In this document: one piece after another, positions 1,628-21,439 of the stretch
How positions within the stretch are numbered: position 1 is the stretch's first letter
Layout: every line of letters begins with the position of its first letter
IMG/VR virus record: IMGVR_UViG_3300029267_000446
Coordinates: 1 to 26,415 of that record
DNA from: a virus
DNA: 26,415 nt
Reading direction: 5' to 3' (one strand)
Notes under the pieces: generated by a model
Told to the model about the DNA's origin: nothing
The model's database searches: none
The model's input: the letters and a program-made list of their open reading frames with translations, nothing else
Position numbers and translations under genes: made by a program

Positions 1628-2221
1628 ATGAACTGGGAAGAAAAGAAAAAACTTTGTTTATATAAAGGCGAAAGTCAAATAAACAAAAAGTATGGAGAAT
1701 GGACTGTTTTGGGATATTCTAGAACAAAAGAAAAACCTAGTGGTTCCGTAGCGATGTGGAAGGTTCAGTGTAGTTGTGGAACAATATCTGAAACTACATC
1801 ACACAATCTAATATATGGAAGAACAACTGGTTGTACAAAATGCTACGGTAAAAGGCATAATGGATCTAAAAATCCAAACTGGAAAGGTTTTGGTGACATC
1901 CCGTCTAGTCTGTGGAGTAGGATTCTAAACGGAGCAAAGAGTAGAAATATTGAAGTTACTGTTGATATTGAATATGTGAATGGTGTGTGGAAAAAACAAA
2001 ACGGAAAATGTGCGTTGTCTGGAGTTGATTTGACAATGGAGGAGTTTTGGAGCAGAGACTCATGGTCAAACTCACCGTCTTTAGATAGAATAGATTCATC
2101 TAAAGGTTACATCCCAGAAAATGTTCAGTGGGTACATCCTATAGTGAATATAATGAAAAACAGATTTGATACGGAAACTTTCATAACTTACTGTCGTTTA
2201 GTGACAGAACAGACTCAGTGA
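1628..2221 (+). CDS. Free-standing HNH homing-type endonuclease
   Basis: A 197-residue protein. The N-terminal half has a four-cysteine zinc-binding-like segment (CSCG near residue 48 and CTKC near residue 70). The C-terminal half has the HNH-like core GKCALSGVDL, then SPSLDRIDSSKGY, PENVQWVHPIVN and MKNRFD, typical of free-standing phage HNH nucleases that cut DNA at specific sites and spread their own gene. It lies directly after nrdJ; phage nucleotide-metabolism genes are a common home for such elements. The gene is visibly richer in A and T than nrdJ and the porin gene, which suggests recent arrival. The start has GGAG six bases upstream, inside the hairpin at 1555-1620. Function confidence is high; the target site is unknown. 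Confidence 0.85.
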   Translation: MNWEEKKKLCLYKGESQINKKYGEWTVLGYSRTKEKPSGSVAMWKVQCSCGTISETTSHNLIYGRTTGCTKCYGKRHNGSKNPNWKGFGDIPSSLWSRILNGAKSRNIEVTVDIEYVNGVWKKQNGKCALSGVDLTMEEFWSRDSWSNSPSLDRIDSSKGYIPENVQWVHPIVNIMKNRFDTETFITYCRLVTEQTQ

Positions 2222-5788: not shown

Positions 5789-6532
5789 TCAACTTTTCTT
5801 CTTTGGTTCCTCTCTTGCGAGTTTACCGAACGCGGCATATCTCTGTGAACCCTTTGGTGCGCCCTTGAGTTGCTTTCGTGCATCTAGGCGTGAGAGGGCA
5901 GCAGAAACACCCTTTGCTCTTTTGTTGGTCTTCGGTGAGTGCTTACCTGTCGAGAGATCACTTTGGACCTGTCCTTTTGCTTTGTAGGCATATGAACGAA
6001 GTGTGTCTGACTTGAGTTCTTGAAGATCATCACCTTCGAGTTCAACGTGGTCCTTTGCTTCTTCTACATCTTCGTAATCAAGTCCACTTGGAACGATCTC
6101 TGCTTCGACCTGATACATTCCATCACCAACACGAACAAATTCTACATTGAGTTCGAGTCCGTGACCGAGTTTCTCGGTGATGTTGTCGCTCTTGTGCCAT
6201 TCGTTGTGTGGAGTGTCTGGTTTCTTACCAAAAGAACCACCGAACATTGTGAGCGGATAGACACCTTCATTTGCTGTTTGTTGGGTAACATCAAAATCAA
6301 GACCGAGAGTGTTCAACTTCGCACGAAGTTCAATAACTGCCTGGTTTGGATCGAAGTAGAGTTTCTTGGTGAAGTTCTCAACGAATTGATTGATCTTCTC
6401 AAGTGACTCTGGGTGTCCGATGTTATGAACACCATAGGAACCAGAACCGAGTGAGTCGAGGTCTGATCCATATGTGTAAATTGCACCGTAGTCTTCTGCG
6501 AGTTGTTCTGTGAGCTCTTTGAAACGCTTCAT
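5789..6532 (-). CDS. Modular head-type protein with targeting-like N-terminus
   Basis: A 247-residue protein starting MKRFKELTEQL, with a possible protease site LTE at residues 7-9. Residues 30-130 contain a conserved T4-like phage region (VHNIGHPESLEKINQFVENFTKKLYFDPNQAV, LRAKLNTLGLDFD). A second possible site, LQE, at 170-172 introduces LKSDTLRSYAYKAKG, which is also found as LKTSTLRSYVKKAQ in the gene at 10020-10781. The C-terminus is strongly basic (KRAKG, EEPKKKS), suiting DNA contact inside the head. GGGGGATC precedes the start, and the upstream gene ends at 6529, giving an ATGA overlap. A scaffold or internal head role is an inference from these features. Confidence 0.75.
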   Translation of the reverse strand: MKRFKELTEQLAEDYGAIYTYGSDLDSLGSGSYGVHNIGHPESLEKINQFVENFTKKLYFDPNQAVIELRAKLNTLGLDFDVTQQTANEGVYPLTMFGGSFGKKPDTPHNEWHKSDNITEKLGHGLELNVEFVRVGDGMYQVEAEIVPSGLDYEDVEEAKDHVELEGDDLQELKSDTLRSYAYKAKGQVQSDLSTGKHSPKTNKRAKGVSAALSRLDARKQLKGAPKGSQRYAAFGKLAREEPKKKS

Positions 6533-6810
6533 TCGTGTGATCCCCCTTGGTCGTTCATCGCCCTCATCGCGGCGTCGAAGAATGTGTTTGCTTGTCCTGT
6601 GTTCATCATCTGTCCGCCTGAAGCGTCCATGAGATGTTGGTTAAGAATTTTGTTACGGTCTTCGAGAGTTCTTGCCTCTCTTGCAGCCTGTCCCGCTTTC
6701 ACGGCAGCCATCTGCATATCGTTACTGATCTCGGTTCCAACTCTCTGTCCGATGATCTTTGCGATGTCATTGGCAACATTACGATATCTTGGGTCATTCA
6801 GGTCGCTCAT
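6529..6810 (-). CDS. Small hypothetical phage protein
   Basis: A 93-residue, Met-, Ala- and Gln-rich, probably helical soluble protein. No family recognised. The start MSDLNDPRYRN at 6810 is preferred over a start at 6879 because AAAGG precedes it and because the longer version would overlap the upstream gene more deeply. It still overlaps that gene by 17 bases and overlaps the next gene by four (ATGA), so it is part of the coupled late block. Confidence 0.65.
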   Translation of the reverse strand: MSDLNDPRYRNVANDIAKIIGQRVGTEISNDMQMAAVKAGQAAREARTLEDRNKILNQHLMDASGGQMMNTGQANTFFDAAMRAMNDQGGSHE

Positions 6811-7840
6811 TGGGTGTATCCTTTTTATATTTACGCAGAAGTTTCTTTGTTCCTTCTTCTCCTGCGCCATGTTCCTCATAGTATGTATAGGATTCGTTTG
6901 CTTGTCCTCTCGCTCGTCTTACTCTTTCGATTTCTTTCTTACGCATTTGAGGCATAAGTCGGAACGCAAGTTTCTTCAGCAAGGCTTTTTTCTTGTTGAT
7001 GAGTTTTTCGACTCTTTCTCTTTCCGCAAAAGACAATGAGTTCCAATCCCTGTCTTTGATGATTCTTTTTCGAATTTTATTTCTTGCGGCTTTCTGTGCC
7101 ATTTTCTTCAGACGAGGTAAGTCTTTCATTAACTTTTTCTTTCTCTTTCGAGCCCTCGCTCTTTTCTTTGCAGTTCTTCTCGCTGCGAGTGATCTCTTGC
7201 GTCTCTGCTGAAGATTCATTTCATAGATGTTTTCTGCGTTCTCTTCAAAATCAAATTCAATATCTTCTTTGATGTTCATGTGTCTCTTGAGATTATTGAA
7301 CATCGAGATTCTGTCTCTTTTTGGCATACGAGATGGTGTGCCCTTGAGAAATGACTCAAGATCGTTGTCTCTTACGAAACCACGCATCTTTGATGCACTC
7401 ATTCCCGATACATCGTCCGCGTCTGGATCTCTTTCACCTGCACTCACCACCTTGAACTCATCGAAGTAGTATGCTTTGCTTTTATCTGAGTGATTGATAT
7501 ATCGACGAATGCCACGATCGAATTCTTTGACTCGATCGGAACCAACTACGAGAATAACTTTCTTGTATCCGTCATCACTGAGTTTCTTCATGACATGAAA
7601 GATGGTAATGGCGTCAGTGTCTTCGATGATATTCGCATAAGGAAATCCCTTCCGAAGAAACTTGATTTTCTTTGCATACGGAAGGGGGTTTTTGTTGTTG
7701 TCTCTGGACATCGAGGTGTAGATGCGATGCTCTGCACCACGATAGGCCTTCGCTACTTTGATAACTGTATTGACGAGTTGTTCGTGGCCTGAAGTCGGCG
7801 GATTTAATCTTCCAAATGTCACTACAATAGACTTAGACAT
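6794..7840 (-). CDS. Cytidylyltransferase-fold (NMN adenylyltransferase-like) enzyme with basic tail
   Basis: A 348-residue protein. Residues 1-170 form a nucleotidylyltransferase domain: FGRLNPPTSGH with the (H/T)xGH motif at 16-19, VVGSDRVKEF at 98-107, and the second nucleotide-binding motif SASKMR at 148-153. This fold transfers a nucleotide to a phosphate, as in NAD synthesis; the substrate is not certain. Residues 205-320 are extremely rich in Lys and Arg (RRTAKKRARARKRKKK) and resemble a domain seen in other T4-like marine phage proteins, perhaps binding packaged DNA. The sequence NIYE before MNLQQRR fits the prohead protease consensus and could release the tail. A late promoter lies at 7858-7865. 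Confidence 0.85.
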   Translation of the reverse strand: MSKSIVVTFGRLNPPTSGHEQLVNTVIKVAKAYRGAEHRIYTSMSRDNNKNPLPYAKKIKFLRKGFPYANIIEDTDAITIFHVMKKLSDDGYKKVILVVGSDRVKEFDRGIRRYINHSDKSKAYYFDEFKVVSAGERDPDADDVSGMSASKMRGFVRDNDLESFLKGTPSRMPKRDRISMFNNLKRHMNIKEDIEFDFEENAENIYEMNLQQRRKRSLAARRTAKKRARARKRKKKLMKDLPRLKKMAQKAARNKIRKRIIKDRDWNSLSFAERERVEKLINKKKALLKKLAFRLMPQMRKKEIERVRRARGQANESYTYYEEHGAGEEGTKKLLRKYKKDTPNERPE

Positions 7841-7892: not shown

Positions 7893-9101
7893 TCAACCCC
7901 AGTTCTTGACAGCTGTGAAATTCTGTCGGGAGAATTCTAGTCGGTCTACAAGTTTTAGTGTTGAACCTTTATTGATTCTATCGACTGCAACGAAACCTTC
8001 AGGGGCGGTCACTCGATAACCATTACCAGTCTGAACAAACGTTCCAATATCTTTCACCTTTTCGAGTTTTCTGACAATATCAGTCTTCAAATCAGAGAGT
8101 TTGCGATAGAGGTCGAATATTTTGTTTATATTAGCTCTATTCTTCTTAAGGTATGAGATGAGCTTGTCAGCGTCTGCCCTTCTTCTCTTCTTCGCATTCT
8201 CTGTTTTGAGACTATCTATAGCGGACTGCATCTTGTCGTTCAAATAAGTTGTGAACTCCTCCGCAGTCCCAAGTAAAGCTCCCTGCCTTACTTGTGCGTT
8301 GCTATAGATTTTAAGTTCTGCAATTATTTTGTCGTTCTTGACGAAGTTGTCAAGGAATGAGCTTACCCTGCTCAATTTTGTCCTGAGTTGCCCAATACGC
8401 CTATTAATTTGTTTTGTTTCTTGTTTTGTGAATGTCGCTGATCCAGAGACATCCTTGAAGTCGGCATCCGTAAACCAGACATCCCTAGTCTTTTTCAGGG
8501 ATTTAACCCGTGGGTTGAAGGATGCTTTCAGGTCTTGAATTGTCGAGCCTTTGTATACCGTGTGGAAAACTATGCCCATTTTCGCCGATCGAATCTTTTT
8601 CGCTAGGTCAGAGTTTACAGGGACGGCATACATGATGGTATTGGGCTGAAATGTTAGATATTCTTCTCCATCAATTGACACCTCCTGTAAATCTGAGTCT
8701 GTGAACATGAGATCGCCTTGAAGAATGTCTCGAATGTCGAGTTTCTTCAAGTGCTTGAGTGCGATCTTAAGCTTTGACGCAAGGCCAGGTGCCTTGCTGT
8801 GGTTCTTGTCGATGTCTGCATTGGTGTAGTTGATCTTCGGATTTTTGTTGAAGACACCTTTGCTGCCGACAAAGAACTTACCTGTTTCTGGGTGAATACC
8901 AGCGAACACAGCGGGAGCTCCGTCCCACTTGACCGTGATATTGACTCTACTTTGTGCGTGTCCTGTGAGTTTTTCGACGATTGATGTTGCAATATCAAGC
9001 GCCTGTACACCACCACCAGAACCGAGGTTCAGAATAGAATCCTCGAAGTGTTCCATATGCACATTTTTTGCTTCATTCAGAAATGTTTGGAATGACTTCA
9101 T
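7893..9101 (-). CDS. Ligase-like KxDG nucleotidyltransferase candidate with capsid-targeting peptide
   Basis: A 402-residue protein starting MKSFQTFLNEAK, a capsid-targeting-like peptide with possible cleavage after LNE (residue 10). Residues 55-65 read TVKWDGAPAVF, which contains the KxDG nucleotidyl-acceptor motif of DNA/RNA ligases. It is followed by FFVGSKGVFNK (77-87), GDLMF (129-133, compare ligase motif III) and GIVFHTVYKG (176-185, compare motif IV). The C-terminal half is helical and coiled-coil-like (KKRRRADADKLISYLKK). Similar KWDGAP proteins occur in T4-like marine phages without known activity. Start 9101 is chosen for the targeting motif and the GATAAATA promoter at 9125-9132. 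Enzyme activity is inference. Confidence 0.8.
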   Translation of the reverse strand: MKSFQTFLNEAKNVHMEHFEDSILNLGSGGGVQALDIATSIVEKLTGHAQSRVNITVKWDGAPAVFAGIHPETGKFFVGSKGVFNKNPKINYTNADIDKNHSKAPGLASKLKIALKHLKKLDIRDILQGDLMFTDSDLQEVSIDGEEYLTFQPNTIMYAVPVNSDLAKKIRSAKMGIVFHTVYKGSTIQDLKASFNPRVKSLKKTRDVWFTDADFKDVSGSATFTKQETKQINRRIGQLRTKLSRVSSFLDNFVKNDKIIAELKIYSNAQVRQGALLGTAEEFTTYLNDKMQSAIDSLKTENAKKRRRADADKLISYLKKNRANINKIFDLYRKLSDLKTDIVRKLEKVKDIGTFVQTGNGYRVTAPEGFVAVDRINKGSTLKLVDRLEFSRQNFTAVKNWG

Positions 9102-9735
9102 TGGCGTACTCTTTCTCTTCGTAGTATTTATCAATTGTTTGCTTTAGAAGAGAGACATAATTCAAAGGATTTTCGATGAATGTCTGTGTAGTACCTTCCT
9201 CCGTGGACACCAGAATCACGATTTGGTCGATTGTTTGACCTGTGAGTTCCTTCCACATGATGGAATAGGCGGTTGCCTGCATGAAGTATTCGTTGATGTC
9301 CGACTTTCTCTTTTCCTTGGTAGAACCTTTGAAGTCGATCACTGACAAACGCCCATCGTATTCTGCGATACAGTCCACACGACCCGCCAGACGCAGGAGA
9401 TCACTGTATAACGGGACTTCTTGTGCTACGATGTTGTTGATGTGTTCGTCGAGAAGTGGCTTGATTTGTAGAAATAAACCAGTGGGGTTTTCGATCTTCT
9501 CGTTATTGAGATAGTCTTCGATGAGTTTATGAACAGAGTTTCCTCTGCGAAGAACCCGCATGGATTCTTGTGGATTTTTGCGTCTCCATTCTGCAAAGAA
9601 CTTCTTCTTTTCATGTCCAACCACGGTGGTTACGGAAGGATATTCTGTACCGTTTTCACGACGGTATTTTCGTCCTTCGTCAGTTGTAGTTGCTTTGAGT
9701 TCTTCGAGAATTGGTGCATTTAGATGTACGAACAT
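9073..9735 (-). CDS. PD-(D/E)XK exonuclease (RecB/MGME1-like)
   Basis: A 220-residue nuclease. Motifs in order: RGNSVHKLIEDYL (65-77, the conserved His region), GRVD (118-121), VIDFK (132-136, the metal-binding D-x-K) and QATAY (the QxxxY motif of RecB-type nucleases). The family processes DNA ends; in T4-like phages such proteins probably act in recombination, repair or host-DNA breakdown. Start ATG 9735 is preferred over GTG 9750 because AAAGG lies just before it. Unlike most of the block it has a sigma70-type promoter at 9753-9781, pointing to early expression. It overlaps the next gene by 29 bases. Confidence 0.85.
   Translation of the reverse strand: MFVHLNAPILEELKATTTDEGRKYRRENGTEYPSVTTVVGHEKKKFFAEWRRKNPQESMRVLRRGNSVHKLIEDYLNNEKIENPTGLFLQIKPLLDEHINNIVAQEVPLYSDLLRLAGRVDCIAEYDGRLSVIDFKGSTKEKRKSDINEYFMQATAYSIMWKELTGQTIDQIVILVSTEEGTTQTFIENPLNYVSLLKQTIDKYYEEKEYANEVIPNISE
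9125..9132 (-). promoter_or_regulatory. Late promoter variant
   Basis: GATAAATA on the minus strand, 23 bases before the ATG at 9101. It lies inside the coding end of the exonuclease gene, so this promoter would allow late expression of the downstream gene apart from the early gene before it. Confidence 0.7.
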
Positions 9736-9781: not shown

Positions 9782-10020
9782 ACGTTTCTTGAACGATTTC
9801 GAGACTTACTCATGGCCACAAGGTTCGATAATCTCTTATCTCTTGGGTTGCCGTTTTTGTGATGTATGTCTTTTCCGTCACCTTTACTAACTATACCTGC
9901 CTTTTCGGCATCTCTACGAGATTGGACCCGACCAGCTCTTCTCAGAATCTGGTCGGGTCTTCCCTGATACTTATCGTATTCGTCACGATAATTTCGTTTC
10001 CACTCTTCGAAACTTAACAT
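9778..10020 (-). CDS. Small HNH-like phage protein
   Basis: An 80-residue basic protein. Its C-terminal half, GDGKDIHHKNGNPRDKRLSNLVAMSKSRNRS, matches the His-His-Asn-containing segment of HNH nucleases and resembles small proteins in T4-like phages. The cysteine pairs that would hold zinc are absent, so it may bind DNA or RNA without cutting. The N-terminus (LSFEEWKRNYRDEYDKY) is helical. ATG 10020 overlaps the upstream stop by one base (TGATG); GTG 10023 is an alternative start. Confidence 0.7.
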   Translation of the reverse strand: MLSFEEWKRNYRDEYDKYQGRPDQILRRAGRVQSRRDAEKAGIVSKGDGKDIHHKNGNPRDKRLSNLVAMSKSRNRSRNV

Positions 10021-10781
10021 CACTTTTCTTTCTTGTCGGTGCCGTCGGCCTTCTTATGTGACTTGTAACCCTTGTTCTTCATCCACCATGAAAGTGCCCA
10101 AGGATTGTCGATCTTGTCTGAGTGTCTCTTCTTCATGGCCTTGACTGTGCCCTCAAAGCCTGGAGGTGAAACTTCATCGAGGTGTTCTGGTGACTCACCG
10201 AGTCTTTCCTTTGCTCTTGCAACACCACGATTACGCTTGCGTAACTTGTTGAACTCTTTCTTTGGGAGCGGATTGGTTGTATACATATCCACCTGTCTCA
10301 TGGCACGCTTTTGATTATCATCCTGTGCTTTCTTGACATAGGAACGAAGTGTGGATGTCTTGAGTTCGTCGAGGTTTTCGACTGATTCACGAACTGTTGC
10401 ACGATTCAGTGGACCCTTGAAGGTATCACCGTTGTCATTCTTAATATGAACGGTACTTCCCTGAATCTTGGTGACTTTACCAACCACACCAGTTCCGCCC
10501 TTGGTGCCGTGACCGAGGTGAACGGTGTCACCGACTTTGATTGCTTCTTCAAGTTCAACGTGGTCTTTGATAAGACCTTTGATCATCTTTGCGTTCGCCT
10601 TGACCGAGGTTGATCCGAGGTTCTGAACAAACTTACTTGTTCCTCTTGTTACATGGAGTTGTCCGTCCTTCTCGTAGAATTCACGACCGAACTTCTTATC
10701 TTTGCCAAGATATTTGTATTCTGGTCCGAGGTGTGACTCTGTTTTTAGATTTTGCTCGTAGATTCTTCTTTGAAATGACAT
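10020..10781 (-). CDS. Modular head-type protein with repeated L-x-E junctions
   Basis: A 253-residue protein starting MSFQRRIYEQ, sharing its N-terminus with the upstream protein (MSLQRKIYEQ). Likely prohead protease sites are IYE (7-9), LEE (77-79), LDE (137-139) and LDE (201-203). These separate distinct modules: an N-terminal piece; a KOW/SH3-like beta domain (IKVGDTVHLG to FKGPLNR, about 81-126); the LKTSTLRSYVKKAQ module shared with the gene at 5789-6532; and a C-terminal SPPGFEGTVKAMKK...NPWALSWWMKNKGYKSHKK module that recurs in marine phages. The layout suggests a packaged precursor cut into small peptides. Cleavage is inferred from the consensus, not shown. Confidence 0.75.
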   Translation of the reverse strand: MSFQRRIYEQNLKTESHLGPEYKYLGKDKKFGREFYEKDGQLHVTRGTSKFVQNLGSTSVKANAKMIKGLIKDHVELEEAIKVGDTVHLGHGTKGGTGVVGKVTKIQGSTVHIKNDNGDTFKGPLNRATVRESVENLDELKTSTLRSYVKKAQDDNQKRAMRQVDMYTTNPLPKKEFNKLRKRNRGVARAKERLGESPEHLDEVSPPGFEGTVKAMKKRHSDKIDNPWALSWWMKNKGYKSHKKADGTDKKEK

Positions 10782-13280: not shown

Positions 13281-13811
13281 TTACTCTATATGTATATCAA
13301 TCCATCTTCCCCAGAGTTCTTTTCCATTGGTATCCAGACCGATCATTCGGAGTGCGTAACAGGACTTTGGTTTCCTCGGTTTGTTTCTTAATCGCATTTT
13401 CGTTTCTTTGAGAAGTTTATTTCCCTTGCGAGTGTTGCAATCAGGGCAGGCCGTCGTGAGATTCGTCCACCCAGAATCTCCACCTCTGCTCCGAGGATGA
13501 ACGTGGTCGATGGTAAGTTTTGATGTGTCTTTGGTTCGGTGTCCGCAGTATTGGCAGGTCCAGTTATCCCGTCGAAATACATTTTGCCTCGTTGGGTTAA
13601 GTTTGTCAGACCAAGGAATGTGGACATACTGAATAAGTACAATCGCCGCTGGTAACTCATATGTCCCAGTCGTTGTCTTGATTCTGTGTTTTTTATCGTA
13701 GTTGTGGGGTTGAGTTGCTTTGCCAGATTCGATAAGTTTGACTGCTTTCTTCCAGTCAACGATTCCAAGCACCTCTTCAGATGCGTTGAGTAAGAGAACC
13801 TCTCTCTTCAT
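13281..13811 (-). CDS. HNH endonuclease (C-x2-C zinc type)
   Basis: A 176-residue protein. The N-terminus (VLLLNASEEVLGIVDWKKAVKLI) and the core CQYCG (86-90), DHVHPRSRGG (102-111), W-NL and CPDCN (122-126) make a complete zinc-supported HNH nuclease, with His103 of the Asp-His pair as general base. This form is widespread in bacteria and phages as a nicking or double-strand nuclease; in tailed phages it often lies near packaging or structural genes. A perfect late promoter lies at 13829-13836, 17 bases upstream of the ATG, with GGAGG between. Its timing therefore points to a late role or passive carriage. Confidence 0.88.
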   Translation of the reverse strand: MKREVLLLNASEEVLGIVDWKKAVKLIESGKATQPHNYDKKHRIKTTTGTYELPAAIVLIQYVHIPWSDKLNPTRQNVFRRDNWTCQYCGHRTKDTSKLTIDHVHPRSRGGDSGWTNLTTACPDCNTRKGNKLLKETKMRLRNKPRKPKSCYALRMIGLDTNGKELWGRWIDIHIE

Positions 13812-14509: not shown

Positions 14510-14878
14510 ATGCAAAAAAATACAAGATTTTTCATTAATCAGATTTGGCCTTTATCAGAAGTATATAGAAATTCTGGTCTTGGTAAATGGTTTCACGGAG
14601 AGAAAGCAAAGGGAACCGAGCCAGGTTGGGATCGTTATAACTCAAAGGGTGAGAGAATCGGTAAATGTGGTGATGCGAAAGAGGGAGAAGCATACGCTGC
14701 ATGTCTCTCTCGACAGAAAGCAAAGAAACTCGGAAAATCAAAGGTAGGATCGTTTGTTCGTCGCAAGAGAGCCGCACAACGTGCTGCGGGTGATGCGGAG
14801 AAAGGCGGAGAGGCTACCAAGGGTGATAAACCCGTCTTCGTAAAAACTGGTATTACTGATTTAAAGAAAAAGGGATGA
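14510..14878 (+). CDS. Small basic phage protein (LGKWF / GWDRYN domain)
   Basis: A 122-residue, strongly basic protein. SGLGKWFHGEKAKG is followed by a segment GWDRYNSKGERIGKCGDAKEGEAYAACLSRQKA with two conserved cysteines (about residues 53 and 65), then KKLGK, GSFVRRKRAAQRAAGDAEKGG and KPVFVKTG. I recognise this combination as recurring in phage proteins, often in head-associated contexts, without known activity. GGGGG lies four bases before the start. It shares an ATGA with the next gene at 14875, so they are coupled and probably act together. Confidence 0.7.
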   Translation: MQKNTRFFINQIWPLSEVYRNSGLGKWFHGEKAKGTEPGWDRYNSKGERIGKCGDAKEGEAYAACLSRQKAKKLGKSKVGSFVRRKRAAQRAAGDAEKGGEATKGDKPVFVKTGITDLKKKG

Positions 14879-16377
14879 ACATGGAAGACCTACACGAAAA
14901 GAACAAGCCCACCAATCCAGATTTATGGAGTCAAGCAATTTCAAAGGCAAAGAGCAAGTTTGATGTTTATCCCTCTGCTTACGCCAACGCATGGGCGTCG
15001 AAGTGGTACAAGGAACAGGGTGGTGGTTGGAGATCAAAGAAGAAGGAGGAGTCCGTGAATTATAACGATATAGAAGAAACTGTCGAGAAAATGACAGGAG
15101 AGATTGCAGACAAGATCAAGGGTGAGATGAAAAAGCGTCTCAACAATCCAAACGCAACAGTCAAGGACTATGCAAAGAGTGCCAAAGAATCAGTAGAACT
15201 TCAAGAACAGAAGTTTAGTAAGGCACAGATCGACCGTATGCGAAAAGAGTACTCATCACTCGGTACGATAGATCCATCCCAACCAACATACAAAAGACTT
15301 ACTGAACTTCTTGATAACATGTCTGACGAACAACTCAAAAAACTTGCACAAGCAAAGATCAAGTTCGTGTCTTCACTTGCACTCAACCGAGTGAACAAAA
15401 GAAAAATGAAAAAGGAGTCAGTTGAACTCAATGAAAATAAGTTTCGTGAAGTTCTCAACCGAGGAAAGAAACTCGGTGACTGGAACATGATGTCATATTT
15501 TCTCTATCAGGGAAATGTGTGGATGCTTCAATCTGGTCGTGCAGTAAACCAAGGCGCACTTGAAGACTTTAGAAAGAGATCACAACCTGGCTTGCTCAAG
15601 TCTATTGGTCTTACCGAAGCACTTGCCGATCGTCAGGTGATTCGTCAAAAGAAACTCCCATCACTGGAAAAGAAAACAACCAACATCGCATTGGTTCTCC
15701 CAAATACTCCCGAGATGCAAACCAAGATTGATCGGGTTCTGGAATTCTCCGCAAGTACGCGAAACCGAATGAACAAATTGGTCACGGGCCGCGAGAACCG
15801 AGGAAAGGATCTGGTTCTCTACTTCCGAAGTGCTCAGTCTCGTAAGAAGTTCCAGAAGATGCTCAACGCAAAGTCAGACTGGACTGCGACCGAATCAGTC
15901 GAGCTCGATGAAGCAAGCGAGAAGGACCACGAATACTCAATGGCACGTTCACAACTCTCGACTATTGAGAAAGCAGTGATGAATCTCAAGAAGAAGATGA
16001 AGGGTGAAGGTAATCTGGAAGCATGGGTACAATCCAAACTCACCAAGGCTGCTGACTACATCGACTCTGTATCTGACTACATCGACAGTGGTGAACATGA
16101 CATAGAAGAATCGAATCTAGAGGAAAAACTCAACGATCCAGTTCGTACCTCGGGTGGACCAAAAAAGTTTATGGTAAAAGTAAAAGATCCATCTACAGGA
16201 AATGAGAAGACTGTTCGTTTTGGTGATCCAAATATGGAGATCAAGAGAGACGACCCAGAGAGAAGAAAGAGTTTTAGAGCAAGACACAATTGCGAAAACC
16301 CAGGCCCAAAGACAAAGGCTAGATATTGGTCATGTCGTATGTGGGAAAAGGGTAAGAAAGTCAGTGAATTGGATTGA
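14875..16377 (+). CDS. Multi-module head-type protein with repeated ESVEL-x-E junctions
   Basis: A 500-residue protein that looks like a string of domains. Residues 12-55 carry the KPTNPDLW...YPSAYANAWASKWYKEQGGGWR module. Near-identical junctions ESVELQE (ends at 111), ESVELNE (187) and ESVELDE (346), plus LTE (248), IEE (412) and LEE (417), all fit the T4 prohead protease rule [L/I]-x-E. Between them lie helical or basic modules, including KDHEYSMARSQL...LEAWVQSKLTKAADYIDS (about 350-400). The C-terminal module RTSGGPKKFMVKV...FGDPNMEIKRDDPERRKSFRARHNC...YWSCRMW recurs in many tailed phages. I infer a packaged precursor cut into several peptides. No capsid-targeting peptide of the MKTY type is present, though LHE occurs at residues 6-8. 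Confidence 0.75.
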   Translation: MNMEDLHEKNKPTNPDLWSQAISKAKSKFDVYPSAYANAWASKWYKEQGGGWRSKKKEESVNYNDIEETVEKMTGEIADKIKGEMKKRLNNPNATVKDYAKSAKESVELQEQKFSKAQIDRMRKEYSSLGTIDPSQPTYKRLTELLDNMSDEQLKKLAQAKIKFVSSLALNRVNKRKMKKESVELNENKFREVLNRGKKLGDWNMMSYFLYQGNVWMLQSGRAVNQGALEDFRKRSQPGLLKSIGLTEALADRQVIRQKKLPSLEKKTTNIALVLPNTPEMQTKIDRVLEFSASTRNRMNKLVTGRENRGKDLVLYFRSAQSRKKFQKMLNAKSDWTATESVELDEASEKDHEYSMARSQLSTIEKAVMNLKKKMKGEGNLEAWVQSKLTKAADYIDSVSDYIDSGEHDIEESNLEEKLNDPVRTSGGPKKFMVKVKDPSTGNEKTVRFGDPNMEIKRDDPERRKSFRARHNCENPGPKTKARYWSCRMWEKGKKVSELD

Positions 16378-16385
16378 AACACCAA

Positions 16386-17258
16386 ATGAAAACAGTAAAG
16401 CAACTCATCACAAAAACTGGTTGGTTACTACCACATTACCCAGTTCAGATCATGAACAAGTATGATGAACATGAATGGTCACATGGTGATCCAGAAGATC
16501 CTATTCACTGGACAGGTGATAAGAAGAAAGCTGACCAGATAACAAAAAAGAAAAGAGTTGCTGGTAAGAAACCATATAGTGATGATGCAGATTTCAAGAT
16601 CGAAGAGTCTTACATTTCGCCTGGTGGTGGGAGTAAGTATGGTAATGTCATCTTTCTTGCGGGTGGTGCCGGTTCTGGCAAGTCAACGGCGATTCGTAAA
16701 TTTGTAGACTTATCAAATTACAAGATCATCAACCCAGATGACTTCAAGGAACGTGCAGTCCGTGGTGCAAAAAAAGGTATCATGAGTTTCCGTCAGTTCC
16801 GTTCTCTCGATCCAAATTCACCCGAAGGCTCTTCCGAGATTCACAAGAAATTCTTTGATAAAGGAAGTGGACTGAGAAGGGCTGCGAGTGTTCTCGACGA
16901 TCCTTCACGATCAGAACTTCCAAATTATCTTTTCGATCGTACATTCTCACATGCAAAAGAATTCAAGAGAATGGCCACAAGAATGTTGAGACTGGGATAC
17001 AAACCACAAAACATGCACATTGTCTTCGTAGATACTCCAGTCGAAAGAGCAATTATGCAGAATCGTATGCGCACTCGTACACTTCCTGATGAAGTAATTC
17101 GTGCGAGCAACGAAGGTGCTCGTGCAAATGTTCGAGATTTTCTTTACAAGAGACTCAGAGGAGCCGCTATTGACGGTGATGTCTGGGTCGTACGCGGTGA
17201 TGATGTCAAGAGAGTCAAGCAGGCCGGTAGACCTTTCAATCGCACCAGTAAAATTTAA
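16386..17258 (+). CDS. P-loop kinase (zeta-toxin/polynucleotide-kinase-like)
   Basis: A 290-residue protein. Walker A GGAGSGKST lies at residues 93-101, followed by INPDDFKE (115-122), which in such kinases holds the catalytic Asp, then LFDRTFS and VFVDTPVERAIMQNRMRTRTLPDEV, a lid-type arginine region. The family phosphorylates small molecules or nucleic acid ends; similar kinases occur in T4-like marine phages. Residues 1-75 are an extra N-terminal piece starting MKTVKQLITKTGW and ending KIEE, so a prohead protease could trim it and free the kinase. ATG 16386 is preferred over TTG 16374, but no strong ribosome binding site is seen, so the start is uncertain. Confidence 0.75.
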   Translation: MKTVKQLITKTGWLLPHYPVQIMNKYDEHEWSHGDPEDPIHWTGDKKKADQITKKKRVAGKKPYSDDADFKIEESYISPGGGSKYGNVIFLAGGAGSGKSTAIRKFVDLSNYKIINPDDFKERAVRGAKKGIMSFRQFRSLDPNSPEGSSEIHKKFFDKGSGLRRAASVLDDPSRSELPNYLFDRTFSHAKEFKRMATRMLRLGYKPQNMHIVFVDTPVERAIMQNRMRTRTLPDEVIRASNEGARANVRDFLYKRLRGAAIDGDVWVVRGDDVKRVKQAGRPFNRTSKI

Positions 17259-18663: not shown

Positions 18664-18682
18664 ATCAGAAGGAGTTTCGGTG

Positions 18683-19717
18683 ATGAAAACATACAGACAA
18701 TTTATCAATGAAGAGGGACGATCGAGAGGTGAAGCGATGGAACATGCGATCGTCACCGCCGTCAATGGCAAAGAGGCAACACAACCAGGCATCCCAAAGG
18801 GTGCCGGAACCAAGGTAGCAAAGGCAACTCGTCTCTCAGGCAAGGCCGAAGTGCTTGGTGCCTCTCAATTGGAAGTCTCTGATATCTGGTCACAATACTG
18901 GCCAGGAGGGAAGGTTCCTGCGTCTACGAAGACTCCTAAGACTGACATCATGGTAGGACGCAAGAAGATCAGTCTGAAGACTGGAGACGCTGCACAGTTA
19001 ATGTCTGGGGGTGTGAATGAGTCCACCGCCACCTTCTACGCAGCGGTGGACCGTATGGGTATTGACCCCGACACTGAGGGTGGGATCTTCAAGAAGATTG
19101 AGGACGCGGTTCTGAATCTTGCTCCTGCTTCAGTAGCAGCAAGTGATCTGAAAAGCGAAATTCAAAAGGGCAAAGATAAAGCAGTTATGCGTGCCAATGC
19201 CGCTCACAAGATTCTGCAAAAGGATCTCAATTCTCTTTTTCAAAACAATCCAGAATTTGGATTTGAATTCATCTACGAAGCCATGACAGGTGAGGTCAAG
19301 TTCGGTGGTAATCTCGGTACATGCACACACTTTCTGACATGTGAATTCGACGGTGAGAATGCTCATCTGATTCCTGTAACAAACGAACAATATGTACGAA
19401 AGATTCTGAAGAGAACCAAAGTATCTGTTCGTTTCAAGACAACATCACAGAAGAGTGGTGGAAAGAAAACAGGTGCGTACAAGTATTGGTCTGTTGTAGG
19501 CCTTGTCACCAACAAACTACTTGAAGAGATTGAATCGGCGGGCGATCTACTGACCGAGGGTATTCTATCTAACATCATTCAAAGAGTCAAAGACTTCGCG
19601 ATGCGTACATGGAACAAAGTCAAGGAATGGGTTTCCAAGTCTTGGCAAAATCTTCTTGACTTCCTCGGATTTGAACCTGTCGTCAAATTCCGAAACAACA
19701 TTAGTTTCCAACCATAA
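18683..19717 (+). CDS. Capsid-targeted PD-(D/E)XK-like nuclease candidate
   Basis: A 345-residue protein starting MKTYRQFINEEG, very close to the T4 internal-protein targeting peptide, with likely cleavage after INE. Residues 17-30 (EAMEHAIVTAVNG) form a helix with conserved acids; TPKTDIMVGRKKISLKTG (84-101) has Asp88 and S-L-K (97-99), the layout of a PD-(D/E)XK metal site, followed by AQLMSGGVNESTATFYAA. I recognise similar sequences in T4-like marine phages. A later beta region (FGGNLGTCTHFLTCEFDGENAHLIPV) and an amphipathic helix near the C-terminus complete it. It could enter the host with the DNA. ATG 18683 is chosen over GTG 18680 on ribosome-site spacing. Confidence 0.8.
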   Translation: MKTYRQFINEEGRSRGEAMEHAIVTAVNGKEATQPGIPKGAGTKVAKATRLSGKAEVLGASQLEVSDIWSQYWPGGKVPASTKTPKTDIMVGRKKISLKTGDAAQLMSGGVNESTATFYAAVDRMGIDPDTEGGIFKKIEDAVLNLAPASVAASDLKSEIQKGKDKAVMRANAAHKILQKDLNSLFQNNPEFGFEFIYEAMTGEVKFGGNLGTCTHFLTCEFDGENAHLIPVTNEQYVRKILKRTKVSVRFKTTSQKSGGKKTGAYKYWSVVGLVTNKLLEEIESAGDLLTEGILSNIIQRVKDFAMRTWNKVKEWVSKSWQNLLDFLGFEPVVKFRNNISFQP

Positions 19718-19745
19718 ACACACTTGATCAGTCGAAGGGATAGAG

Positions 19746-20255
19746 ATGAAATCATTCAAGCAATTTATCGCAGAAGCACGGGCGGCGGTACTCGGAAGAG
19801 CGTATATCGTCGGTCCAAATGGTAAATGGTTCCATTGTAACGCACGAACACACAGCGATTGGGTGATGAAAAATTACAAGAAAATTGGTGTCACATCAAA
19901 ACTCGCAAGTTATAATCCCAAGAAACCAGAAACCAATTATAGCATTACCGTCGAAGATGCCATTTGGTATGGTGCAGTTCGAATTCTCGTTTCACATGGC
20001 GTCGTTGAGATGGTATGCAAAGAGAGTGCATTGACTCCAAAGGTGAGAAAAGCATGTGCTGATTTCTATGAGAAGGTAGCATATGGTCACAAAGTCTGGA
20101 TTTATGTCGCCGACGAGGAAGAAGGCGGTGATGAAAACGTGGAGGGTCGTTTGCTTCATAATTTTCCTGATCCCGATGATGCGATGCAATTCTTCGAGAG
20201 AGGTAAAGTTGTGAAGAGAAGCAAGATCGGTAGTACGATGGCACAATTCAGATGA
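19746..20255 (+). CDS. Internal head protein-like, one module
   Basis: A 169-residue protein starting MKSFKQFIAEARAA, matching T4 internal proteins (MKTYQEFIAEAR) at nearly every position; cleavage would follow FIAE. The body has an N-terminal motif YIVGPNGKWFHCNARTHSDWV, and ends RGKVVKRSKIGSTMAQFR, an ending shared with both halves of the next protein. AAGGGA precedes the start. It overlaps the next gene by ATGA, so the two are coupled. I infer a packaged, injected protein; T4 IPI, which blocks a host restriction system, is a precedent, but the target here is unknown. Confidence 0.85.
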   Translation: MKSFKQFIAEARAAVLGRAYIVGPNGKWFHCNARTHSDWVMKNYKKIGVTSKLASYNPKKPETNYSITVEDAIWYGAVRILVSHGVVEMVCKESALTPKVRKACADFYEKVAYGHKVWIYVADEEEGGDENVEGRLLHNFPDPDDAMQFFERGKVVKRSKIGSTMAQFR

Positions 20256-21439
20256 AATCATTCAGTCAGTTTATACTCGAAGAAACATCATATCGCCGCA
20301 AGGGATACATCAACATCAAGACAGGCAAGATGGTGTTGTTTCCTTTCGCGGGTAGAGGTATTCGTCCGTTTCATACCGAGTATGTGTTGAAGAATGCAAA
20401 CAAGTTCATTCGTGGAGGTGAAAACGCACTTCTTCGAAAGTTCGCAGATGCAAATGGATTTGAACCCGAAGACGAAGAGACGATCTCCATGTGGGTTGAT
20501 ATCAAGACTGGCAAGGTAGACCGCGATCCGAATCTCGATAGCATCATGGAAGCAGAGGGATGGCGTCGTGTGGTATTTGACGAAGGTATCTCCAGTGTCG
20601 AACCACGCGATCGCCGCGAAGGACAGAGACTCGTCAAGATGATACTCGATAAGATTCCGTGGAAGAACATTGAAAGTTTGAATGTCTATGATGAAGGACA
20701 CTTGAACGACATGACCACATTATATTCAGAGGAAGACGCATACTCATACGTCAAACGTGGGTCTGTTCCGAGACGAAGTAAGATCGGTTCAACCATGGCT
20801 ATGTTCCGTGGCGAGAGTGTCAGTGAACAAATAGTCAAGGGCGAGTTGATCAAAGGATGGATGACACCACGCGGCAAACTAATGGTATATCCAAGAAATA
20901 GTAAACAAGAGTATCACCTACAGATTCTCACACAACTGATTCCGTATGAGAAAATGCGTCCTCACATGGGCGAGTTCATTGGTTCGGAACATCTCAAGTT
21001 CATTGAAAAGATGCAGAAGGATGGAACGTCAGACTTCACAGATGAACAAATGAAAGAACTCGTCGAACGTGAGTATAAGAGAGTCTACAAAATGTGGGCG
21101 ACTGGTCGTGTTGACTCCGACAGAACCGTAGAAGGCAAGTTCGTGGATATGGGATGGGTCAAGATCGTGATTGATCGCAACCAATATGGCATGTCTGCAA
21201 TCGAGGGATCGGACAGACAGACACTCAAGTGTGCGAAGAAACTCGACAAGATGTTTGGTGGATGGGAAGGATTCGCCACCAAATCCATGATGATATCCAG
21301 CAAGACAAGTGTCAGTAGAATCGGATCGGCAATTCGTGACAGTGCTGGTTGGGATCACTATCTCAAGACAGGTCAAGTCAAACGGCAGACTGAGATTGGT
21401 CGCAAGATGTCTCAGTTCCGTGAGTTTGTTCAAGTATAA
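20252..21439 (+). CDS. Internal head protein-like, two tandem modules
   Basis: A 395-residue protein starting MKSFSQFILEETS, again a capsid-targeting-like peptide with L/I-x-E at FILE. It is an internal duplication: module 1 runs from YINIKTGKMVLFPF (about 20) to RGSVPRRSKIGSTMAMFR (about 187); module 2 from GWMTPRGKLMVYPR (about 205) to TGQVKRQTEIGRKMSQFR (about 390). The preceding gene is a single such module. Each module has a conserved His/Tyr start region, a helical middle, an acidic beta segment and the basic R-x-x-IG-x-x-M-x-x-FR end. No catalytic motif is seen. Probably packaged with the DNA; role unknown. Confidence 0.85.
   Translation: MKSFSQFILEETSYRRKGYINIKTGKMVLFPFAGRGIRPFHTEYVLKNANKFIRGGENALLRKFADANGFEPEDEETISMWVDIKTGKVDRDPNLDSIMEAEGWRRVVFDEGISSVEPRDRREGQRLVKMILDKIPWKNIESLNVYDEGHLNDMTTLYSEEDAYSYVKRGSVPRRSKIGSTMAMFRGESVSEQIVKGELIKGWMTPRGKLMVYPRNSKQEYHLQILTQLIPYEKMRPHMGEFIGSEHLKFIEKMQKDGTSDFTDEQMKELVEREYKRVYKMWATGRVDSDRTVEGKFVDMGWVKIVIDRNQYGMSAIEGSDRQTLKCAKKLDKMFGGWEGFATKSMMISSKTSVSRIGSAIRDSAGWDHYLKTGQVKRQTEIGRKMSQFREFVQV

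Follow-up and report, generated by a model that had tools for sequence, protein, structure and literature searches.

Several components of the system considered here are already known: head proteins are cleaved behind [LI]xE, gp22 and gp67 are cut at more than one site, and injected proteins with several domains exist (PMC9026906, PMC5512222, PMC10052503). The capsid targeting sequence of T4 has a length of 10 residues (PMC9026906). In Salmonella phage SPN3US, multiple prohead-protease cuts occur in head and ejected proteins, with gp245 as the protease (PMC10052503). Polyvalent proteins of phages and conjugative elements combine 2-15 disparate domains per chain, are predicted to be delivered together with DNA, and have been likened to polyproteins (Iyer et al. 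2017, PMC5512222). In this study, a 500-aa reading frame from a T4-like marine phage was analyzed which probably encodes a gp21-processed cargo polyprotein, i.e. a shuffled variant of T4 head processing. Modular composition, module shuffling, the junction motif at module borders, and the association with the S77 protease were directly observed. From these observations we infer cleavage of the 500-aa protein, packaging, retention and ejection of its products, and the function of the modules.

The window analyzed is a virus contig of 26.4 kb (26,415 nt; IMG/VR record IMGVR_UViG_3300029267_000446) that represents a genome fragment. It encodes a DUF6267 protein (7893..9134, minus strand) whose nearest counterparts among isolates were found in Methylophilales phage Melnitz, C48C1, cyanophages, and Pelagibacter phage HTVC008M. 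Judged by sequence relationships of this neighbor, the source is placed as a T4-like, Kyanoviridae-like marine phage. Six clustered tRNA genes (Tyr, Ser, Asp, Ala, Leu, Val) are located at the contig end (25912-26411), and two ORFs at 1628-2221 (plus strand) and 13281-13811 (minus strand) resembled homing/HNH endonucleases by eye.

The putative cargo polyprotein gene (14875..16377, plus strand) is an open frame from an ATG, in which modules M1 to M6 were mapped. According to the initial annotation, three ESVEL(Q/N/D)E strings end at residues 111, 187 and 346. These were recovered as ESVELQE (105-111; 15187..15207), ESVELNE (181-187; 15415..15435), and ESVELDE (340-346; 15892..15912), and the reported LTE246-248, IEE410-412 and LEE415-417 are also present. 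Three further [LI]xE sites had escaped that annotation: LHE6-8 (14890..14898), a candidate site immediately ahead of M1, as well as IEE66-68 and LTE142-144. The latter lies within module M2. Hence, [LI]xE by itself does not define cutting. With 9 occurrences compared to 4.9 +/- 2.0 in 10,000 shuffles (P = 0.04), the plain [LI]xE count in this single protein is only suggestive and too weak to decide. The repeated ESVELxE 7-mer is far beyond chance. Strings of the type E[STDNEM][VIMF][EDNT][LI]xE were found 98 times in 2,907 distinct ORFs from related loci versus 7-9 times in shuffles, an approximately twelve-fold excess, and variants with D replacing the last E numbered 17 in this set.

Because E, V and L are encoded by differing synonymous codons in the three ESVELxE copies, it is the peptide rather than a DNA repeat that is conserved. 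This bears on the view that the junctions are recombination linkers, i.e. short homologous stretches for module exchange without a role in cleavage. Heavy module shuffling and the mutual similarity of the junction strings would agree with such linkers. However, in addition to the differing codons, conservation is confined to P3 and P1, with variation at P2, P4-P6 and P1', which is the pattern of a protease and not of DNA, and recombination linkers are therefore regarded as highly improbable.

The description of the segments as apparently unrelated modules proved to be correct, since they match different phage groups and each has its own relatives. M1 (residues 1-57; 14875..15045, this and all following modules on the plus strand), of the WPSAYA type, is confidently folded and related to the N-terminal half of DUF5872; its relatives occur in cyanophages and Roseobacter phages. 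It is followed by the acidic linker or segment M1b (58-111; 15046..15207), which holds IEE68. M2 (112-187; 15208..15435) is a single gene in Rhizobium phages and is preceded by ILE in HTVC008M. M3 (188-248; 15436..15618) carries LTE248 at its C-terminus. Its relatives came from two contigs only (L003 and L005), within other module orders, and no match was obtained among isolated phages. M4 (249-346; 15619..15912) has one other relative, in an M1-M4 architecture, so the known relatives of M3 and M4 are very few. M5 (347-417; 15913..16125) is of the DHEYSMARSQ type of cyanophage T4-GC119 proteins and contains IEE412 and LEE417 in its tail. The very basic M6 (418-500; 16126..16374; phrog_7595) is related to proteins of many marine phages and remotely similar to DUF5754/Tlr6F. 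The M6 match to this Pfam family (E 4.4e-5, 23.9 bits) is below the gathering score cut-off of 27.4, and 6 of 18 M6 members matched at E <= 0.001. Polinton-like viruses, virophages and giant viruses encode Tlr6F, a small conserved protein without an assigned role (PMC4642659). No function was found in the literature naming the Pfam families, and PDB sequence searches gave no match.

DUF5872 is also present in large eukaryotic viruses. Its first half aligned with M1 (L270:2118-2288) and its second half with another phage module, B (L208:6167-6448), the latter match being weak (E 0.016). M1 and B may represent one split DUF5872-related family. In the window, a stand-alone B module gene (14510..14878, plus strand), with LSE before VYRNSGLGKWF, overlaps the start of the polyprotein gene via ATGA. 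In S-BM3 and in contig L005, B and M1 form a single protein and are separated by an LxE site, the joints (slashes) reading NIGE/EYIEE/KNVPTNP and YLTE/KNKPTDP, respectively. Despite the split B and M1 genes, the site is kept in the window (MNMEDLHE/KNKPTNP).

The AlphaFold2 model of the 500-aa protein, based on a shallow alignment, reached a mean pLDDT of 60.5. Confident parts were M1 (pLDDT 94-97, residues 11-50) and the core of M3 (86-89), and values below 50 were assigned to residues 57-67, 248-253, 332-349, and 404-430. Structure prediction had been suggested as a check on whether the junctions fall in disordered linkers or inside folded cores. The outcome was mostly in line with disordered linkers: no junction was located in a confident core, but the ESVELxE copies at 105-111 and 181-187 were predicted as helices of low confidence (approximately 60-72) and are not clearly linkers. 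Long-rmsd fold matches were disregarded due to the low overall model confidence. The only meaningful fold matches were short ones of M1 to phage proteins of 44-57 aa.

Four scans of viral contigs resulted in 249 loci, and profile searches were carried out over 3018 ORFs from these and earlier loci. Module families were identified in 423 viral proteins which, after overlap resolution, displayed 79 architectures, 67 of them multi-module. Among 56 ordered neighbor pairs, 14 were found in both orders, and at least one LxE linker was present in 49 of the 56 pair types. Together with the concentration of LxE before module starts, this is the outcome anticipated by the initial annotation, in which modules are shuffled while junctions stay. 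Several unrelated domains per chain in variable combinations, as in polyvalent proteins, are thus seen in the 79 architectures. The T4-GC119 proteins of S-SM1, S-SM2 and S-BM3 contain the same modules in different orders and are encoded just after gp16, and the counterparts in S-SRM01, S-SCSM2R and DSL-LC02, also just after gp16, again have these modules reordered. The T4-GC119 locus lies between gp16 and gp17. In its S-SM1 copy ESVEIQE is found ahead of a module, and the annotation of this family is 'hypothetical' and not 'virion structural'. In proteins of about 630 aa from three contigs (L054:5902-7779, L072:5884-7791, L034:5902-7824), M6 and D modules are N-terminal; by eye the C-terminal part resembles a protease-scaffold fusion, and it had no Pfam hit.

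The placement of the junction motif was evaluated in a non-redundant set of 186 proteins using 16-mers before module starts. [LI]xE was present in 167 of 329 such windows (51%) versus 70 +/- 6.5 in shuffles, in 28 of 1132 module-interior windows (2%), and in 394 of 2631 other linker windows (15%). The control motifs LxD, LxxE and LE were found upstream of 23 (7%), 64 and 68 of the 329 module starts, respectively. In 402 distinct linkers [LI]xE reached 1.70 times the shuffled level (z 16.6) and [LI]E, [LI]xxE and [LI]xQ remained at 1.0, while within modules [LI]xE dropped to 0.40 times; z values of this kind overstate independence, since related sequences are counted, and the non-redundant figures are preferred. 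Redundancy-controlled linkers (n=193) gave z 9.6 for LxE, 0.6 for [LI]E, and -0.3 for LxxE. In 43 of these 193 linkers the predicted cut position (P1) fell one residue ahead of the next module, which is the peak of the distribution. Weaker linker signals were observed for [VMF]xE (1.2 times) and for Ex[LI] (1.3 times), the latter deriving partly from the ESVEL string. About half of the module starts are without a nearby LxE, and in DSL-LC02 one of five has it.

M1 is preceded by LxE in 49 of 62 distinct contexts, 42 of them at one fixed offset, and by LxD in 1 of 62. At this offset P2 varies (LHE, LLE, IEE, LNE, LTE, LVE, IDE and others), and relatives carry IEE, LTE, LNE or LEE at the position of LHE8, ahead of KNxPTNP. 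In T4, processing is blocked when the P1 Glu is replaced with Asp, and the rarity of LxD before modules fits this block (PMC9026906). At its candidate processed positions the 500-aa protein carries [LI]xE, as do gp21 substrates. An uncleaved multidomain protein, of the virion or the cytoplasm, in which LxE arises by composition in acidic flexible linkers, would be compatible with K- and E-rich linkers and with a simple LxE count barely above chance in the 500-aa protein. Nevertheless, neither composition-matched shuffles nor the LE, LxxE and LxD controls reproduce the signal, and composition would not account for a position fixed before M1 in 42 contexts or for the depletion within modules. 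An uncleaved protein is therefore considered very unlikely.

The S77 protease (PF03420, T4 gp21) was found in all 10 Kyanoviridae genomes tested, S-SM1 among them, and also in Flavobacterium phage immuto. It was not detected in 14 module-bearing records (CRP-2, -6, -207, -235, -738, -902, HTVC041P, 106P, 112P, 202P, Aegir, DSL-LC04, S-CRES1, and RHEph12), of which Aegir is an 18-kb record. In complete genomes, 17 of 33 modules had an upstream LxE when S77 was present compared to 1 of 18 when it was absent (Fisher P 0.0016), a correlation that sets unrelated phage groups side by side. Complete phage genomes rather than IMG contigs split by S77 or gp23 were used for this contrast because most IMG contigs are fragments. 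No S77 gene was found in the 26-kb window or its nearest contigs, all of which are fragments. Many modules are fused in phages with S77 and are single small genes in phages without it, e.g. M6 and M1 of CRP-2, which are the adjacent genes gp71 and gp70. The single exception among S77-less phages is Roseobacter phage CRP-6 (L277:1186-1875), where an XkdF-type prohead protease (PF14550) carries M6 at its N-terminus. This fusion points to the capsid interior. By eye, gp97 of S-CRES1 appeared to be an M1-B fusion without LxE.

Further genes in the window show similar features. A P-loop kinase-like protein (16374..17258, plus strand) has IEE ahead of its kinase domain, and a P-loop kinase domain of similar kind is located between LEE and INE sites in a large polyprotein of another contig (L079:2443-6237). 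In a second polyprotein-like gene (10020..10781, minus strand), HGTGHG- and TLRSY-type modules are flanked by VELEE, NLDE and HLDE junctions. A third one (5789..6532, minus strand) starts with MKRFKELTE and has DLQE before a TLRSY-type module. ORF 10020 and its neighbor 10783 share the start MS[FL]QR[RK]IYEQ, perhaps a second targeting signal. The cytidyltransferase-like gene (6794..7840, minus strand) belongs to family T4-GC190, whose relatives make up the N-terminal region of polyproteins that have M6 at their end and are fused to TGHRP and M6 modules. This family was detected in S-SM1 virions (PMC3037559), which bears only indirectly on packaging of the 500-aa protein.

N-terminal decamers of the type MKSFxxF[LI]xE were present in 56 of 1525 ORFs versus 0.3 in shuffles, with a P1 peak at residue 10, although these are not 56 independent cases, as many belong to one family (MKSFQQFISESINIAGDF). 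We take these decamers to resemble that of T4 IPIII. The pattern is found in four neighbors within the window, namely the DUF6267 protein (MKSFQTFLNE, from the second Met) and three neighboring genes at 18680..21439 (plus strand) with the capsid-targeting-like decamers MKTYRQFINE, MKSFKQFIAE and MKSFSQFILE. In C48C1, a stand-alone M6 follows directly behind MKKFKQYIDE and ELELTE. The start of the 500-aa protein, MNMEDLHE, ends in LxE without the MKxF/Y..F pattern and differs from a typical targeting sequence of about 10 residues. Nearly all module families are net positive. T4 internal proteins are basic (PMC9026906), and this likeness of the mostly basic modules was counted in favor of packaged cargo.

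The cleavage rule and capsid targeting are carried over from the T4 literature. On this basis, six or seven small, mostly basic modules would be translated as one chain that enters the prohead core, where a gp21-type (S77) prohead protease would cut after [LI]-x-E at LHE8, LQE111, LNE187, LTE248, LDE346, and IEE412/LEE417. A cut at IEE68 is possible, and one at LTE144 is doubtful due to its location inside M2. The freed products would be mostly basic peptides of about 7-11 kDa, most of which would remain with the DNA as internal peptides and be ejected together with it. The initial annotation had proposed one translation product giving about five packaged peptides. Shuffled modules and [LI]xE at their joints favor the polyprotein reading, but the number of products is probably nearer six or seven.

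Alternatively, gp21 might cut the junctions, but the pieces would be prohead core or scaffold filler leaving the head, as most of T4 gp22 and gp67 do. T4 core proteins are indeed cut into multiple fragments which mostly exit (PMC9026906), the same motif logic would apply, and CRP-6 has a fusion of M6 with a prohead protease. In contrast, the modules are conserved small folds, each kept as a gene of its own in unrelated S77-less podo- and siphoviruses, and mostly strongly basic modules as well as fusions to enzymes (cytidyltransferase, kinase) suit cargo better. Core filler thus seems unlikely.

Beyond this locus, the cargo polyprotein may tentatively be seen as part of a general shuffled cassette system in marine T4-like phages. 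Modules and enzymes (cytidyltransferase, P-loop kinase) would be recombined at gp21 sites, allowing one or a few transcripts to load many internal proteins, and an internal, DNA-associated place in the virion would be expected for the Tlr6F/DUF5754-, DUF5872- and DUF6321-like proteins of eukaryotic viruses as well. Polyproteins are characteristic of eukaryotic RNA viruses, and a capsid-maturation protease cutting a shuffled cargo chain would, if true, put head proteolysis to a distinct use. Such a system would also provide a function for 'hypothetical' families of abundant marine phages (T4-GC119, phrog_7595, DUF5754, DUF5872, DUF6321), allow virion content to be predicted from the sequence only, and suggest a hypothesis that can be tested for Tlr6F of polinton-like and giant viruses.

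In the open-licence papers searched we found no description of a polyprotein whose modules are shuffled and whose joints carry prohead-protease sites, which does not prove its absence. The cyanophage T4-GC119 cluster (Sullivan et al. 2010, PMC3037559) contains the homologous modules M5, C, B, D and E and some LxE joints; in the portion of that report drawn on here it figures only as a hypothetical protein, with no mention of a polyprotein nature. Polyvalent proteins (PMC5512222) have large, often enzymatic domains and often embedded peptidases, whereas our candidates consist mostly of modules of 25-100 aa without a peptidase and with head-protease sites. Known polyvalent domains (metallopeptidase, ART, DdrB-like, RadC and others) had no Pfam match in the 500-aa protein. 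The multiple cuts in SPN3US (PMC10052503) are as proposed here, but they mainly remove N-terminal propeptides, at AxE, and leave one mature product per protein. With T4 gp22 and gp67 the 500-aa protein would share multiple gp21 cuts in one chain; their fragments are scaffold-derived and mostly leave the head, whereas the units exchanged between genes and phages here are distinct, conserved modules. T4 IPI-IPIII and Alt, from which gp21 removes propeptides, agree in the [LI]xE rule, in their basic character and the packaging that is proposed here, and in the length and pattern of the decamers of the neighbors. In T4, each such gene encodes a single cargo protein that receives one main cut, in contrast to the gene described here, whose chain contains several modules with a candidate site at every joint.
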